The translations under genes and the position numbers were made by a program. Shown here in pieces: positions 7,495 to 57,049 of a stretch of DNA of 64,000 bases. Under the pieces are notes generated by a model. That model was not told the DNA's origin. It ran no database searches and was given only the letters and a program-made list of their open reading frames with translations. The first letter of the stretch is position 1; every line of letters starts with the position of its first letter. The stretch is from Ferrimonas sp. YFM. Its GTDB lineage: Bacteria; Pseudomonadota; Gammaproteobacteria; Enterobacterales; Shewanellaceae. The stretch covers positions 3,644,839-3,708,838 of the forward strand of contig NZ_AP027368.1 of assembly GCF_030296015.1 (NCBI RefSeq), written 5' to 3'.

Positions 7495-7602
7495 CGTTAT
7501 CTTATCGTTGTGGATTAGCGATGGAGGCAACTGACACGACTGTGCGTCGAGGGAGGGATATGCAGAGAATAGAAACCCACCGTCCTTTCAGTAGCGCTCC
7601 AT

Positions 7603-7632
7603 AGTAAAAAAGCATCCGAGCTCCTCTCGGAA
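7603..7632 (-). terminator. Riboswitch-controlled terminator
   Basis: On the minus strand TCCGAG-AGGA-GCTCGGA is followed by TGCTTTTTT, an intrinsic terminator about 110 bp before the transporter start. An outer helix, CCATAGTAAA (7642-7633) with TTTACTATGG (7608-7599), brackets it. The 3' edge of the riboswitch aptamer shares CCATAG with that helix, so the structures can compete. Confidence 0.8.
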
Positions 7633-7636
7633 TTTA

Positions 7637-7785
7637 CTATGGCAGTGCTGCTCCTGTTAAAAGCAGCCCCAGCGGCCAGGGATGATGCCCTGCCCACTTC
7701 GGCATCGACTCCTTTCCACCGGCGTCGTCGGGTATCAACCTCGACCGGCGTACTGATAGGCGATGCGCCTCTACCTAAATCGGTA
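7637..7785 (-). ncRNA. Lysine riboswitch (L-box)
   Basis: Read on the minus strand, the segment carries the lysine-riboswitch landmarks in order: AGAGGCGCATCGCC followed by CAGTA, then AAAGGAGTCGATGCCGAAG, a GGGC/GCCC-type arm, CGCTGGGGCTGC, a variable hairpin, and GCACTGCC closing P1. P1 can form between GGTAG (near 7776) and CTGCC (near 7644). It is followed by an intrinsic terminator before a poly-T stretch, the usual transcription-attenuation design: lysine bound means termination. No covariance model was run, so the limits are approximate. Confidence 0.9.
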
Positions 7786-40556: not shown

Positions 40557-40590
40557 GAGATTCCTCAATAATATATGGGGTTAAGCCTCC

Positions 40591-40643
40591 ACGTATCCCA
40601 TGACCCGACCCCTGAGGGCACCCCGGACCATGTGCCGATACGT
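40591..40643 (-). promoter_or_regulatory. Candidate RpsB (S2) leader structure
   Basis: In the rpsB 5' region, on the minus strand, ACGTATC (40643-40637) pairs with GATACGT (40597-40591) and closes a GC-rich core containing GGGGTGCCCTCAGGGG. Position and layout fit the gammaproteobacterial S2 autoregulatory leader. I have not tested it against a covariance model. Confidence 0.5.
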
Positions 40644-40824
40644 GTGTGGTTTAATAACAATTTAACGATATAATGGCGCCATTGTTCGCTTGGGAGCCCA
40701 AACCTGATGGTCAGGGGTCCATTCAAGACTCAACAGAACCGGCGCGCTTTATACCATACTGGGGCATAAAGCTCAACCTGACCCGGTTTCCCAGAGCCCG
40801 AAATTCGATAGAAAGAGTAGACTA

Positions 40825-47180: not shown

Positions 47181-47651
47181 CTACGCCTCGACCAGTGCCT
47201 CGCAGAGCTGTCTCTGCCAGGACTCCACCCAGGGCAGAGCCACCTGCTCGGGCTCCATGGTCTCGCAGGCATCGATCTGCAGACGCTCTCCGATGCGCAC
47301 GGCGGTCAGTTCGGCGAGCAGCTCATCGAACTGGCGCCCGGCACCACAGAAGGTGTCTCCGTAGCTGGAGTCACCCAGGGCAATCACGCCGTAGCGCAAC
47401 TTGGGCACCAGGGGAAACTGCTCGTTGAGAGAAAGGAAAAGGGGAAGCAGGTTGTCGGGAAGGTCGCCGCTGCCTGTGGTGGAGGTCACCACCAGCCAGG
47501 CGTCGCTGCCCTCCGCCAGCAGTTGATCCGCAGACTGGGCATCACTGATGGCAGCCTGATGGCCTTGTACCTGCAGAGCCTGACATACCTGCTCCGCCGT
47601 GAACTCGGCTCCACCATACACCGACCCCACTAACACACTGATCCTGGCCAT
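47181..47651 (-). CDS. yqcA: Flavodoxin YqcA (MioC-like)
   Basis: 156 aa short-chain flavodoxin binding FMN. The phosphate loop is VGSVYGGAEFTAEQV. The isoalloxazine loops are VTSTTGSGDLPDNLLPLF and YGVIALGDSSYGDTFCGAGRQFDELL. The overall match is to the YqcA branch, and the gene order yqcA-truC-yqcC is as in E. coli, which separates it from MioC. Its redox partner is unknown. It lies 10 bases before the PTS gene on the same strand, an unusual pairing. Confidence 0.88.
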   Translation of the reverse strand: MARISVLVGSVYGGAEFTAEQVCQALQVQGHQAAISDAQSADQLLAEGSDAWLVVTSTTGSGDLPDNLLPLFLSLNEQFPLVPKLRYGVIALGDSSYGDTFCGAGRQFDELLAELTAVRIGERLQIDACETMEPEQVALPWVESWQRQLCEALVEA

Positions 47652-47673
47652 CGAACTACATCCTGTTAATGAC

Positions 47674-47706
47674 TTGATAAATTCCCAATTCCACCTTACT
47701 GTAAGG
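47674..47706 (+). promoter_or_regulatory. Candidate promoter with overlapping palindrome
   Basis: TTGATA (47674-47679), a 17-bp spacer and TACTGT (47697-47702) form a fair sigma-70 promoter. CCTTACTGTAAGG (47694-47706), a 13-bp palindrome, covers the -10 and could be an operator. It points at the small ORF at 47744. Confidence 0.45.
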
Positions 47707-47743
47707 ACCGAAAAGGCGCAACAACCGCGCCAACGGAGGCAGG

Positions 47744-47893
47744 ATGCAGTTCCGTCAGAGAGTACGTCGTACTCATCACAGGATTCACGTCAAGCGGCAG
47801 CGTATCCGCCGCCTGACCTATTTCACCCACACCCATATGGAGCGCCTGGGCTCCCTGCCTCAATCCGCCCCCAGCGGCTCCAAAAGGCGATAA
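47744..47893 (+). CDS. Small arginine-rich protein, unrecognised
   Basis: 49 codons: begins MQFRQRVRRTHHRIHVKR and ends SGSKRR. About a quarter of the residues are Arg, with many His and Lys, so it is very basic and could bind nucleic acid. Support: a perfect GGAGG ribosome site four bases from the ATG, a promoter-like sequence 40 bp upstream, and its place on the plus strand between two minus-strand genes. Against: it is short, resembles no family I know, and its last 34 bases run antisense over the 3' end of truC. It could be a chance ORF. Confidence 0.45.
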   Translation: MQFRQRVRRTHHRIHVKRQRIRRLTYFTHTHMERLGSLPQSAPSGSKRR

Positions 47894-48618
47894 GCCTGCT
47901 GCTCTGTTGACCAGCCAAATGCCTCGAACAGGCGCAGCCACTCCTCCTCCAGCTTAGTCTCCAACTCGATGCGCTCTCCGGTCACCGGATGATCGAAGCA
48001 CAAAGCCTTGGCCAATAACCACAGACGCTGCACCCCGAAATGATCCCGGTAGAACTTGTTATGGCGTCCGTCGCCATGGCTGGTGTCGCCGATAATGGGA
48101 TGGCGCAGGTGCGCCATATGGCGGCGCAGCTGATGCTTGCGACCGGTCAGCGGCTTCATCGCCACCAGGGTATAACGGCAACTGTCGTAACGTCCGACCG
48201 GATAGGGCAGCTCCACCCGATGAAGAGGACGATAACAGGTGACCGCTTCCTGAGCCTCCTTATCCTGATCCGCCTGGGCGTCGGCGATCTTATCCAGCTC
48301 CTCCTTCAGAGGGTAATCCAGCTCTCCCCCCTCATTGAGGTACCCCCTGACCAGGGCCAGATACTCTTTGTGGATACCGCGCTCGGCAAACTGGGGCTGC
48401 ATAATTCGGGCAATCTCTGCGGACTTGCCAAACAGCAGGATGCCCGACGTGGGCCGGTCCAACCGGTGCAGCGGGTACACATGACACCCCACCTGATCCC
48501 GAACCATCTGCATGGCAAACTCGGTTTCCCGCTTAGCCAACCAGCTGCGGTGCACCAGCAGGCCACTGGGTTTGTGCACCGCCACCAGATGCTCATCTTC
48601 AAACAGAATCTCAAGCAT
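47860..48618 (-). CDS. truC: tRNA pseudouridine(65) synthase TruC
   Basis: 252 aa RluA-family pseudouridine synthase that modifies U65 in the acceptor stem of some tRNAs. The catalytic Asp is in YPLHRLDRPTSGILLFGKS. Other family motifs are LVAVHKPSGLLVHRS, MKPLTGRKHQLRRHMAHLRHPIIGDTSHGDGRHN and LLAKALCFDHP. The ATG at 48618 (MLEILFED) overlaps the end of yqcC by eight bases. The yqcC-truC-yqcA order is conserved with E. coli. Confidence 0.94.
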   Translation of the reverse strand: MLEILFEDEHLVAVHKPSGLLVHRSWLAKRETEFAMQMVRDQVGCHVYPLHRLDRPTSGILLFGKSAEIARIMQPQFAERGIHKEYLALVRGYLNEGGELDYPLKEELDKIADAQADQDKEAQEAVTCYRPLHRVELPYPVGRYDSCRYTLVAMKPLTGRKHQLRRHMAHLRHPIIGDTSHGDGRHNKFYRDHFGVQRLWLLAKALCFDHPVTGERIELETKLEEEWLRLFEAFGWSTEQQAYRLLEPLGAD

Positions 48619-48931
48619 CTTGTGCCTCACTCATCAGGGAGTCCAGCTTCGACAACAGGGCAATCACCTCGTCACGGCCCGCCAGGGCCTCTTCCGCCAT
48701 GGGCGCCACCGCCACCTTGGTGGGCAAAGGCGCCCCGGCGTCCAGCAGGGCAAACAGCCTGGGCAGGTAGATAAACTGAAGCCACTGCTCAAACCTCAGG
48801 GTGTCCACGGCAAAGGGCTGAGTACTGGCCAGCGCCTGGGCCGGCACCGGCTCAGACTGCCACAAGCCATCTTGAATCAATTGCGCCTGCAACCGCTCAA
48901 GCTCGCGGCGAACCGCCATCTTCAGGGTCAT
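48611..48931 (-). CDS. yqcC: YqcC family protein (DUF446)
   Basis: 106 aa small acidic helical protein. The conserved block is LGLWQ-type residues followed by FAVDTLRFEQWLQFIYLPRLFALLDAGAPLPTKVAVAPMAEEAL. Its function is unknown. It is nearly always linked to truC and, in enterobacteria, lies next to csrB and syd; in this window both are also near. It overlaps truC, so it is co-translated. The promoter must lie in the 110-bp gap shared with the divergent DUF3549 gene. Confidence 0.88.
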   Translation of the reverse strand: MTLKMAVRRELERLQAQLIQDGLWQSEPVPAQALASTQPFAVDTLRFEQWLQFIYLPRLFALLDAGAPLPTKVAVAPMAEEALAGRDEVIALLSKLDSLMSEAQDA

Positions 48932-50061: not shown

Positions 50062-50478
50062 ATGTTGAATCTCACCGATCTTATTCTGGGACTGGTGGTG
50101 TGCGGAATCGCCGCCATCTTCTGGCAGCTGAGGCAGATCTCCGAGATCGCCGAATTTCATGCCAAGCGGGTCTGCCAAAAACGGCGTCTGCAGTGGGTCA
50201 GCACCGCCAGAGTGCGCGCCCGTCTGGGCTTTATTGCCGGCCAGGGGCTGGGGTGGAACACCCGCTATCAGTGTGAGTTCTCCACCGATGGCATGAACCG
50301 GCTGCACGCCACTGTGGTGATGAGCGGCAAGAAGCTCAAGGATGTGGAGATGCCCTTCTACCCTGAGCCCGAGTGGCAAGAGGTGCCTCAAAGCAAAGGA
50401 CGCATCGGCGGTTGCGGCGGAGGCCGTGCACCGGCCTCCAATTGCTCCAGCGGCAGCTGCTCCAGTGGTTGCAAGTAG
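50062..50478 (+). CDS. DUF3301 family membrane-anchored protein with Cys-rich tail
   Basis: 138 aa. Residues 5-24 are one transmembrane helix (LTDLILGLVVCGIAAIFWQL). The middle domain carries KRRLQWVSTARVRARLG and FSTDGMNRLHATVVMSGKKLKDVEMPFYPEP, typical of DUF3301. The last 25 residues are Gly/Ser/Cys-rich with five cysteines (GGCGGGRAPASNC, SGSCSSGCK). That tail could bind metal or form disulfides and I do not know it as part of the family. It is probably a cytosol-facing protein partner of the DUF3549 product. A terminator follows. Confidence 0.78.
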   Translation: MLNLTDLILGLVVCGIAAIFWQLRQISEIAEFHAKRVCQKRRLQWVSTARVRARLGFIAGQGLGWNTRYQCEFSTDGMNRLHATVVMSGKKLKDVEMPFYPEPEWQEVPQSKGRIGGCGGGRAPASNCSSGSCSSGCK

Positions 50479-50491
50479 CCTAAAAAGCAAT

Positions 50492-50522
50492 AAAAAAGCC
50501 TGACGCGAGTCAGGCTTTTTTA
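50492..50522 (+). terminator. Terminator of DUF3549-DUF3301
   Basis: AAAAAAGCCTGAC-GCGA-GTCAGGCTTTTTT is a perfect 13-bp stem including A/T tails. It also gives a T-tract on the minus strand. Confidence 0.95.
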
Positions 50523-50589
50523 TTGCGGCTTCCTTTGGCCAGCCTCAACGGAGAGAATCTCTGACCCCGGGGCGATACTTTTTGAAACC

Positions 50590-50960
50590 ACAAATAGAAC
50601 GGGGCGCACAGAGTGCGCCCCTAGATATTACACGCTAAGCAATCCCGCTATAATTCGTGCTCCCTGCATCATCCTTGCGTACCACTCGCTTCCTGCGATC
50701 TTCCCTGTGCTGATCCTTCAGCATCCCTGTACATTGCTGTACTGTTCTCCTTAACACGATAACATCCTGTTATCGAACGCATCTCCGTCCTGGAGGTGTC
50801 CTGTACCTTCCTTGGGATTCTGCAATCCTGGCAGAGCGGCTCCCCTTTCAAGTCTCACCATCCTAGTGATGTCTGTCCGGTTCGCCCAAACCGTCTCTTA
50901 AATGGCGACTCCCTGTCACGCATCTCCAAGTCGGTTTAGAAGCCTGTTCCCTTGGCACAC
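50590..50960 (-). ncRNA. csrB: CsrB-family regulatory RNA (CsrA sponge)
   Basis: Read on the minus strand, this gene-free stretch has about 19 GGA motifs. Most are AGGA or CAGGGA set in short hairpin loops, for example CAGGATTGCAG, ACACCTCCAGGACGGAGATG, AACAGGATGTT, AAGGATGATG and GCAGGGAGCA. The second and last are nearly identical to stretches of E. coli CsrB. It ends in AGGGGCGCAC-TCT-GTGCGCCCC followed by GTTCTATTT, and its inferred length of about 370 nt equals E. coli CsrB. CsrB binds many CsrA dimers and relieves their repression of mRNAs. The location near yqcC and syd supports the call. Ends are inferred from promoter and terminator. Confidence 0.92.
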
Positions 50961-50965
50961 CTTAA

Positions 50966-50993
50966 AGTCTACTCAGATCACAGAAACAAACAA
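50966..50993 (-). promoter_or_regulatory. Candidate csrB promoter
   Basis: On the minus strand TTGTTT (50993-50988), a 16-bp spacer and TAGACT (50971-50966) would start transcription near 50960. That position gives the expected RNA length. Confidence 0.55.
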
Positions 50994-51132
50994 GATAGGG
51001 GACCAAATCAATGGCTGGTGGATTATTGGTCGATTCGAGGGTTGTAATTAGCCTTTATTCCTTACAATCAATTACTTGGATTTTGATAACGAGATTGGAC
51101 CTGCCAAAAGACCCACCATTTTCCTACAGGCT

Positions 51133-51150
51133 TGTAAGAGATCTCGCACA
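51133..51150. promoter_or_regulatory. GacA/UvrY-type upstream activating site of csrB
   Basis: TGTAAGAGATCTCGCACA matches the GacA box TGTAAG-N6-CTTACA in the whole left half, the central AT and four of six right-half bases. It lies about 180 bp upstream of the inferred csrB start, the distance usual for GacA- and UvrY-activated Csr/Rsm RNAs. Confidence 0.65.
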
Positions 51151-51157
51151 AAATCCA

Positions 51158-51802
51158 TCAGACCGATTGAGCCACACCATCCCGATCGGCCGCATCGAAG
51201 TACATTAATTGACCGGTAACGTCGCCCAATGTCACCTTTTCCATGGACTTGAACCCCTTTCGGGCAAACAACTGTTCATGCTGGGGCTGGGACACAAACA
51301 CCGCCAATCCCTGCGAGTCACTCTCAGACAACAGTTGCAGCAAAGAGGCCAGAACCTGGCCACCGATCCCCTGATTCTGATGCTGGGGATGGACGGCAAT
51401 CAACTGCAACAACCAGTAATCGTCCCCGGGCAACATCCCCTTGAGCTCATCTTCCCGCTCCATCCAGTGACGGGTAGGGCTCCAGCCTGTGCCCAAAGCC
51501 ATCTTCAGTCGCCAATACCAGTAACGGCTCTCCCCTTGCGGGTACTCCTTGTCGACGATACAGGCGACCGCCACCAGGACATCCTCCTGATAAAAACCCA
51601 CCAGCTTCTGTTTGTGCTGCCACAGCTCCGCCAGCTCCTCACGCAACGCAGCCCGGAGCTTCTGGCCATAGCCCTGCCGGCCGAAAGCCTGCTGAAAAAA
51701 CAGGTCATCGTGGTAGGCGTTGTAGAGCAACGAAGCCGCAACCCTCAGCTCTTCAGCCGTCAGGTAGCTGGCCTTGATCTCAGCGCTCTGCCCTTGGCCC
51801 AT
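51158..51802 (-). CDS. GNAT-family N-acetyltransferase
   Basis: 214 aa. The GNAT core is in the second half: WLLQLIAVHPQHQNQGIGGQVLASLLQLL is motif A with the acetyl-CoA loop (QNQGIG), and GLAVFVSQPQHEQLFARKGFKSMEKVTL is motif B. The N-terminal 80 residues (TAEELRVAASLLYNAYHDDLFFQQAF) are typical of small-molecule acetyltransferases. The substrate is unknown. ATG 51802 has AGGAG eight bases upstream. The gene ends eight bases from the GacA-type box, so its transcript could read towards csrB. Confidence 0.85.
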   Translation of the reverse strand: MGQGQSAEIKASYLTAEELRVAASLLYNAYHDDLFFQQAFGRQGYGQKLRAALREELAELWQHKQKLVGFYQEDVLVAVACIVDKEYPQGESRYWYWRLKMALGTGWSPTRHWMEREDELKGMLPGDDYWLLQLIAVHPQHQNQGIGGQVLASLLQLLSESDSQGLAVFVSQPQHEQLFARKGFKSMEKVTLGDVTGQLMYFDAADRDGVAQSV

Positions 51803-51951
51803 ACTCTCTCTCCTGCGTTCAACTCTCTCTGGATACACCTTGATAACACAAGATCTTTTTCCAGTGTACCCCGACCATTGGTTTAAGGCCCGGCCAAGGC
51901 TCAGCTTTGAGACTACACTCAAGGTGATTCTTCAATGGAAAGGATGCAGTT

Positions 51952-56371: not shown

Positions 56372-56992
56372 CTAACTGCGGCCGGTCAAATGCCCCAGCA
56401 TGATTTTCACCCTAGCCCAGAAACCGGGTCGCGGTGGCTCCACCGGCATGGGCTCTGGCAAAACCACCCTGGGGGAGAGGCTGTCAAACAACGCCTCCAG
56501 GGAATCCGCCACCCGGGTTTCGGGTTCCTTGCCCGGTAACTCCAGCCAGATGGAGCCGTCGCCGTTGTCCAGCACCAGCATCAGGTCCGAGTCCGCCATC
56601 ACGCCGATGAACCAGGTGGGCGGCTGCTTCAGTTTCTGCTTCATCAGGGCATGGCCGATCAGGTTCTCCTGGAGAAACTCGAAGTCCTCCTCGTTCCAGG
56701 GCTGCAGCAGTTCGCCGGCGCCGAAGGAGGCATCGAATCCCGGGTTACCCCCATAGAAGTGACCGTAGAACTCGGCCAGGGCGGGGTGCAACTCCAGCTC
56801 CAGGGCCTGGGCCAGGTTGCCGAAATCTGCCGCATCACGGGCCGCAGGCTGCCAGAGCTGTCCCAGCTCATGCTCTCCGGCACTGGCGGGGCCGGATTCG
56901 CTGCGATCGGTCACGGGCAGATGGCCGTGGGTCTGGGTCCAGGCAGAGGCGTGGCGGTCGAAAAACTGGCCAAGAGGCGAGCTGTGGTTCAT
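56372..56992 (-). CDS. syd: SecY-interacting protein Syd
   Basis: 206 aa cytoplasmic protein that binds SecY at the inner membrane and is thought to check translocon assembly. The conserved core is present: HPALAEFYGHFYGGN, LLQPWNEEDFEFLQENLIGHALMKQKLKQPPTWFIGVM, and VLDNGDGSIWLELPGKEP. The C-terminal tail, PEPMPVEPPRPGFWARVKIMLGHL, is longer than in E. coli. The gene is divergent from queF, the same neighbour as in E. coli, and csrB lies 5.5 kb away. Confidence 0.9.
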   Translation of the reverse strand: MNHSSPLGQFFDRHASAWTQTHGHLPVTDRSESGPASAGEHELGQLWQPAARDAADFGNLAQALELELHPALAEFYGHFYGGNPGFDASFGAGELLQPWNEEDFEFLQENLIGHALMKQKLKQPPTWFIGVMADSDLMLVLDNGDGSIWLELPGKEPETRVADSLEALFDSLSPRVVLPEPMPVEPPRPGFWARVKIMLGHLTGRS

Positions 56993-57049
56993 GGGGTTGG
57001 CATCTCTGGGTTAGAATAGCGGGATATTGTGCCACGTTTCGGAATCACT

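Follow-up and report, generated by a model that had tools for sequence, protein, structure and literature searches.

The minus strand of the gene-free gap between a DUF3301 gene and a GNAT acetyltransferase gene in the window (the whole stretch of 64,000 nucleotides that was analysed) carries an RNA gene that we assign, at a probability of about 0.96, to csrB, orthologous to csrB of Escherichia coli; under this assignment the RNA is expected to act via BarA/UvrY and to sequester CsrA. CsrB is here an ordinary, well-conserved addition to a known RNA family. A CsrB-family RNA in this gap had been proposed by a first-pass annotation, and the proposal is borne out by an Rfam match, synteny, a UvrY box and the proteins CsrA, UvrY and BarA, all of which agree. 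The label of a master switch, given to the RNA in the same annotation, would be carried over from the family.

50590..50960, minus strand: csrB RNA gene, approximately 369–371 nt with 20 GGA motifs, recognized by Rfam model RF00018 and by GGA density

Identification of csrB

The covariance-model search of the minus strand that had been suggested as a check was run, and RF00018 (CsrB/RsmB) aligns over model positions 1–356 to window positions 50888–50590 (minus strand) with a score of 86.2 bits, above the cut-off of 71. Only 5 of 14 Ferrimonas genomes exceed this cut-off, and one Ferrimonas genome (G006) gives no CsrB match with strict filters; both of its copies were seen by GGA density and terminators. 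The gap, previously put at 630 bp, measures 679 bp from stop codon to stop codon (50479–51157).

The GGA motifs, which had been estimated at about 19, number 20 in the 371 nt of 50960–50590 (minus strand), and ten of them are AGGA. None of 2000 dinucleotide shuffles of the RNA reaches 20 GGA (mean 12.2, s.d. 2.3), and four of 2000 reach ten AGGA. When both strands of the window are scanned in segments of 371 nt, 64 of 127258 reach 20 GGA, and all of them start at 50580–50643 on the minus strand. In the predicted ensemble, 15 of the 20 motifs show a mean unpaired probability above 0.5, whereas the remaining five are largely paired. The predicted fold has a z-score of -3.63, with none of 100 shuffles folding as stably, and 14 of the 51 predicted pairs show compensatory changes when 10 of the 22 Ferrimonas copies are aligned.

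CsrB of E. coli K-12 (b4408, NC_000913) is 369 nt long and contains 22 GGA motifs, compared to approximately 369–371 nt and 20 motifs in the window. The best local sequence match between the two RNAs is limited to a core of 24 nt with 22 identities, a score that none of 300 shuffles attains. The 20-mer originally quoted as nearly identical to E. coli CsrB is identical at 17 of 20 positions. Local alignment with E. coli csrB scores 38 for the RNA and 40 for the region upstream of it; in neither case does any of 300 shuffles score as high.

The genes around the gap were assigned by their Pfam matches.

50062..50478, plus strand: DUF3301 gene, convergent neighbour (PF11743, 86.7 bits)
51158..51922, minus strand: GNAT acetyltransferase gene, upstream neighbour (PF13508, 42 bits)
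47181..48931, minus strand: yqcA-truC-yqcC-like cluster (flavodoxin, pseudouridine synthase, DUF446; Pfam matches)
56375..57010, minus strand: syd (PF07348, 172 bits)

The order in the window is the yqcA-truC-yqcC-like cluster, DUF3549, DUF3301, csrB, GNAT, other genes and syd. This resembles the E. coli order yqcA-truC-yqcC-csrB-syd, with shared neighbours on both sides of csrB, but DUF3549, DUF3301, GNAT and other genes are inserted between them. Among 75 relatives of the yqcC protein in one collection, the best is that of Ferrimonas futtsuensis, with 93% identity, which makes a Ferrimonas species the most likely host. A plasmid search of the csrB locus returned no match, and a literature search found no work joining "Ferrimonas" and "CsrB"; the assignment now places the Csr switch in this marine genus. 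Two other RNAs of the window are a lysine riboswitch at 7584–7781 (minus strand, 122.5 bits) and a t44 RNA at 40580–40666 (minus strand, 88.4 bits).

Upstream region, promoter and terminators of csrB

The following elements were located around the RNA gene.

51133..51150, minus strand: predicted UvrY/GacA inverted repeat TGTGCGAGATCTCTTACA, 17 of 18 positions as in the E. coli csrB repeat (PMC4682653)
51122..51128, minus strand: half-repeat TGTAGGA, 4 bp downstream of the UvrY box
51066..51078, minus strand: IHF-like site, reverse complement AATCAATTACTTG, a weak match found by eye between box and promoter
50966..50971, minus strand: -10 hexamer TAGACT of csrB, read by eye together with TTGTTT at 50993–50988, spacing 16 nt
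50601..50621, minus strand: intrinsic terminator of csrB, a 9-bp stem GGGGCGCACTCTGTGCGCCCC followed by GTTCTATTT
50487..50526, bidirectional: second terminator, between csrB and the convergent DUF3301 gene

The UvrY box begins seven bases past the stop codon of the GNAT gene, upstream of the 50590–50960 interval to which the first-pass annotation was confined, and is absent from that annotation. In E. coli, UvrY binds TGTGAGAGATCTCTTACA upstream of csrB, centred at -183/-182, and a partly conserved TGTAGGAGA lies 5 bp beyond the repeat (PMC4682653); the half-repeat TGTAGGA also occurs at E. coli csrB, as seen in our alignment with E. coli and in that paper. With the RNA starting at 50960, the box of the window is centred at -181.5, within 1 bp of the -182.5 in E. 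coli. It is identical in all six single-copy genomes, the window's included, where its centre ranges from -177.5 to -181.5. At up to three mismatches, the box pattern has a single site in the 4.66-Mb genome, read in both directions (1+1). A reversed control pattern, searched in the same way, has 2+2 matches, more than the box itself, and the weight of the box therefore lies in its single mismatch and its position and not in the count. The IHF-like site was recognized by comparison with WATCAANNNNTTR, which we take to be the IHF consensus; it is rated weak because no conservation is visible by eye in the six aligned upstream regions.

The promoter, which had been proposed to give an RNA of about 370 nt, is poor in sequence but has a conserved -10 element. 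TAGACT is kept as the -10 element in 6/6 single-copy orthologues, including that of the window's genome, with RNA lengths of 367–369 nt. The -35 and -10 elements are poor matches to the consensus and are unlisted by a sigma-70 consensus scan; such a low score would fit a promoter that needs an activator. The 5' end (approximately 50960) was derived from the conserved -10 element and its spacing to the UvrY box. The sites that the sigma-70 scan does list near the gap, 50627–50654 (plus strand) and 51107–51080 (minus strand), were rejected, as neither fits the conserved csrB start.

At the other end, the intrinsic terminator that had been claimed is present as the 9-bp stem at 50621–50601, though its T run GTTCTATTT is interrupted and poor. 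The seven outer pairs of the stem are kept in 10/10 aligned copies.

Copy number of csrB and alternative readings of the stretch

A csrB-type RNA lies between the GNAT and DUF3301 genes in all 14 Ferrimonas genomes, the window's included. Six of them, among them the window's genome, have a single copy and eight have two in tandem (for example, loci L112, L116 and L124). Phylogenetic analysis of the 22 copies gives a clade of second copies (100/100) and a clade of singles (100/99). The first copies group with weak support (68/41), too little to tie the singles to copy 1 by the tree; by eye, the terminator of the singles resembles that of copy 1. Most likely, the lineage of the window lost csrB copy 2. 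Most genomes of the window's family have a pair of csrB-type copies at this locus. CsrB1 and CsrB2 of Shewanella oneidensis are preceded by a UvrY box, as is csrB of the window; they are two copies, with predicted sizes of 420 and 421 bp (PMC3171408), compared to one here. Duplication of csrB is also known from vibrios (PMC6262261).

The reduced copy number bears on the reading of the stretch as a relic, that is, a csrB that was once functional and is now unexpressed, its work having been taken over by the CsrC-type RNA described below. The lack of the second copy found in 8/14 genomes leaves this lineage with fewer Csr RNAs, and the csrB promoter is weak. Nevertheless, the box, the -10 element and the length are conserved in 6/6 single-copy genomes, the terminator stem is kept in 10/10 aligned copies, and compensatory changes occur in the stems; a relic is highly improbable. 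Even less credit is due to a small protein encoded by the 60-aa open frame that starts from a TTG at 50851 (minus strand): the frame is indeed open, but it has no Pfam match, the longest open frame falls in differing reading frames across six orthologues, and the stretch fits an RNA family model with covarying stems. An equally negligible probability attaches to a chance GGA-rich stretch or an untranslated region of a neighbour, lacking Csr function. Purine richness does raise the GGA count, and shuffles of the same sequence still average 12.2, but none of the 2000 reaches 20; the Rfam match, the E. coli-like box and the synteny also speak against this reading, and both neighbours end towards the gap, so that neither can contribute a 5' leader.

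Csr partners and proposed mechanism

The partners expected for csrB are encoded in the same genome. There is one csrA match, whose product shares 54 of 56 aligned residues with the CsrA chain 1y00_A. UvrY scores 399 bits (cut-off 280), with an intact uvrY frame of 213 aa, and BarA scores 1241 bits (cut-off 890). The best CsrD-like protein reaches 497 bits, below the cut-off of 663 but well ahead of the next, at 141.5.

By analogy with E. coli and S. oneidensis, metabolic end products would activate the kinase BarA. As in other members of the family, BarA would then phosphorylate UvrY, and phosphorylated UvrY would bind the box and turn on csrB. The transcript is anticipated to offer GGA motifs in loops and to bind many CsrA dimers, which would free the mRNAs under CsrA control. 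Expression of both csrB1 and csrB2 is reported in S. oneidensis, with levels that drop more than 100-fold when UvrY or BarA is missing (PMC3171408). Alongside CsrB, a second RNA, of the CsrC type, is expected to act in the window's genome.

A predicted CsrC orthologue upstream of yihI

The CsrB model gives a weak second match in the window's genome, at C1:4429694–4429881 (27.2 bits). It falls within a second RNA, outside the window, which is predicted to be a CsrC orthologue with Csr function that is missed by Rfam's CsrC model.

C1:4429555–4429956 of the window's genome G000 (L003:2056–2457), plus strand: second Csr-type RNA, approximately 400 nt, outside the window, in the csrC position

The RNA has a cytochrome c gene on one side; on the other come, in this order, a methyltransferase gene, yihI and a radical-SAM gene. 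The order in E. coli is polA-spf-yihA-csrC-yihI-hemN. The second RNA is found in all 14 Ferrimonas genomes. Its -10 element is TA(A/G)AGT, and in 14/14 it is preceded by a UvrY-type box whose centre lies between -157 and -159. E. coli CsrC is similar in its place (between the Spot 42 gene and yihI), its -10 element (TAAAGT or TAGAGT) and its UvrY box. It differs in length, 246 nt compared to approximately 367–403 nt for the second RNA, and the Ferrimonas locus additionally contains genes for a cytochrome c4 and a methyltransferase. In two Ferrimonas genomes (G001 and G002), the box is one base off the Salmonella csrC box as printed in PMC4682653. Compensatory changes occur at 20 of 47 consensus pairs of the second RNA.

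The upstream region was searched for Spot 42 RNA, which was matched in four of the five loci searched with scores of 58–62 bits, below the Rfam cut-off of 80.

L111:167–286, L120:269–389, L115:4823–4944, L118:4830–4951: Spot 42 matches near the csrC-type RNA, in the expected place

No Spot 42 match was found in the stretch searched for the window's genome, and a frame tested for engB near the second RNA has no Pfam match.

The 3'-terminal 191 bases of the second RNAs from the 14 Ferrimonas genomes were used to build a covariance model, R1. Among 60 genomes, R1 has matches in 39, namely 14/14 Ferrimonas, 20/22 others of the family and 5/24 others of the order, and in 39/39 the match lies upstream of yihI on the same strand. 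YihI itself is matched over its cut-off in 49 genomes, ten of them without an R1 match. R1 also finds the annotated csrC of E. coli, with 31.6 bits (E = 4e-7 in 90 kb), and gives a short match of 19.5 bits on the opposite strand of its terminator; it has no match in the stretches that carry E. coli csrB or the csrB of the window. The Rfam CsrC model RF00084 (cut-off 61 bits) is passed in 0 of the 60 genomes. Below the cut-off, RF00084 gives full-length matches at the R1 place in 13 genomes, the window's genome not among them: here it has no match at the second-RNA locus at E-values up to 0.01, and its sole match lies elsewhere, at C1:1746751 (18.1 bits).

When the second RNA is simply aligned with E. 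coli CsrC, the score lacks significance, as 95 of 300 shuffles do as well (35 of 300 for the upstream region), and orthology to CsrC therefore rests on position, box and model R1. The RNA aligns better with E. coli CsrB than with CsrC, with 10 of 300 shuffles as good. The excess of GGA in the whole intergenic stretch that contains it is moderate: shuffles as high number 0–28 of 500 in the 14 Ferrimonas genomes and, in nine other genomes counted, as many as 201 of 500.

Two earlier CsrC proposals refer, by their gene names, to other places. The "csrC" of S. oneidensis (mutM/SO_4727, not UvrY-dependent; PMC3171408) is at a different place, judged by gene names only. The CsrC call in S. piezotolerans, which PMC5471319 ties to a 3-oxoacyl-ACP synthase gene, is likewise elsewhere by name. 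Among the matches listed in a literature search for csrC with Shewanella or yihI, none dealt with a csrC of Shewanella or Ferrimonas at the place described here. If the orthology is correct, strains of this family stripped of csrB may keep a further Csr RNA.

Possible rewiring of CsrC control in sister genera

The upstream signals differ among the genera with an R1 match. A UvrY half-site, TGT(A/G)AGA(G/C/T)A(T/A), was sought in sense orientation within at most 700 nt before each of the 39 R1 matches. It is present in 14/14 Ferrimonas, in one of the five order-level genomes (G052) and in neither of the two genomes of genus g5. In the 18 genomes of g2 and g4, genera that probably correspond to Shewanella and to one of its close relatives, the half-site is found once (G034), at another position, and never at the expected place. 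Looser UvrY-like matches occur in g2 and g4 at other positions in G025 (4 mismatches) and in G030 and G033 (5 mismatches), and are reached by 4, 4 and 15 of 60 shuffles, respectively.

These observations touch on a broader proposal, to which we give even odds: CsrC would be an old, order-wide RNA upstream of yihI that has gone unseen beyond the enterobacteria owing to an overly narrow CsrC model in Rfam, and in g2 and g4 it would have lost its link to BarA/UvrY and come under the control of another signal. A palindrome, ACGTwwACGT, is located upstream of the csrC-type RNA in 14 of the 18 genomes of g2 and g4 (for example, L150 and L164) and in none of the 21 others; it may resemble the LiuR motif. 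A promoter of the TTGACA/TTTAAT type, a strong sigma-70-type promoter, is present in 7 of the same 18 genomes by a strict pattern.
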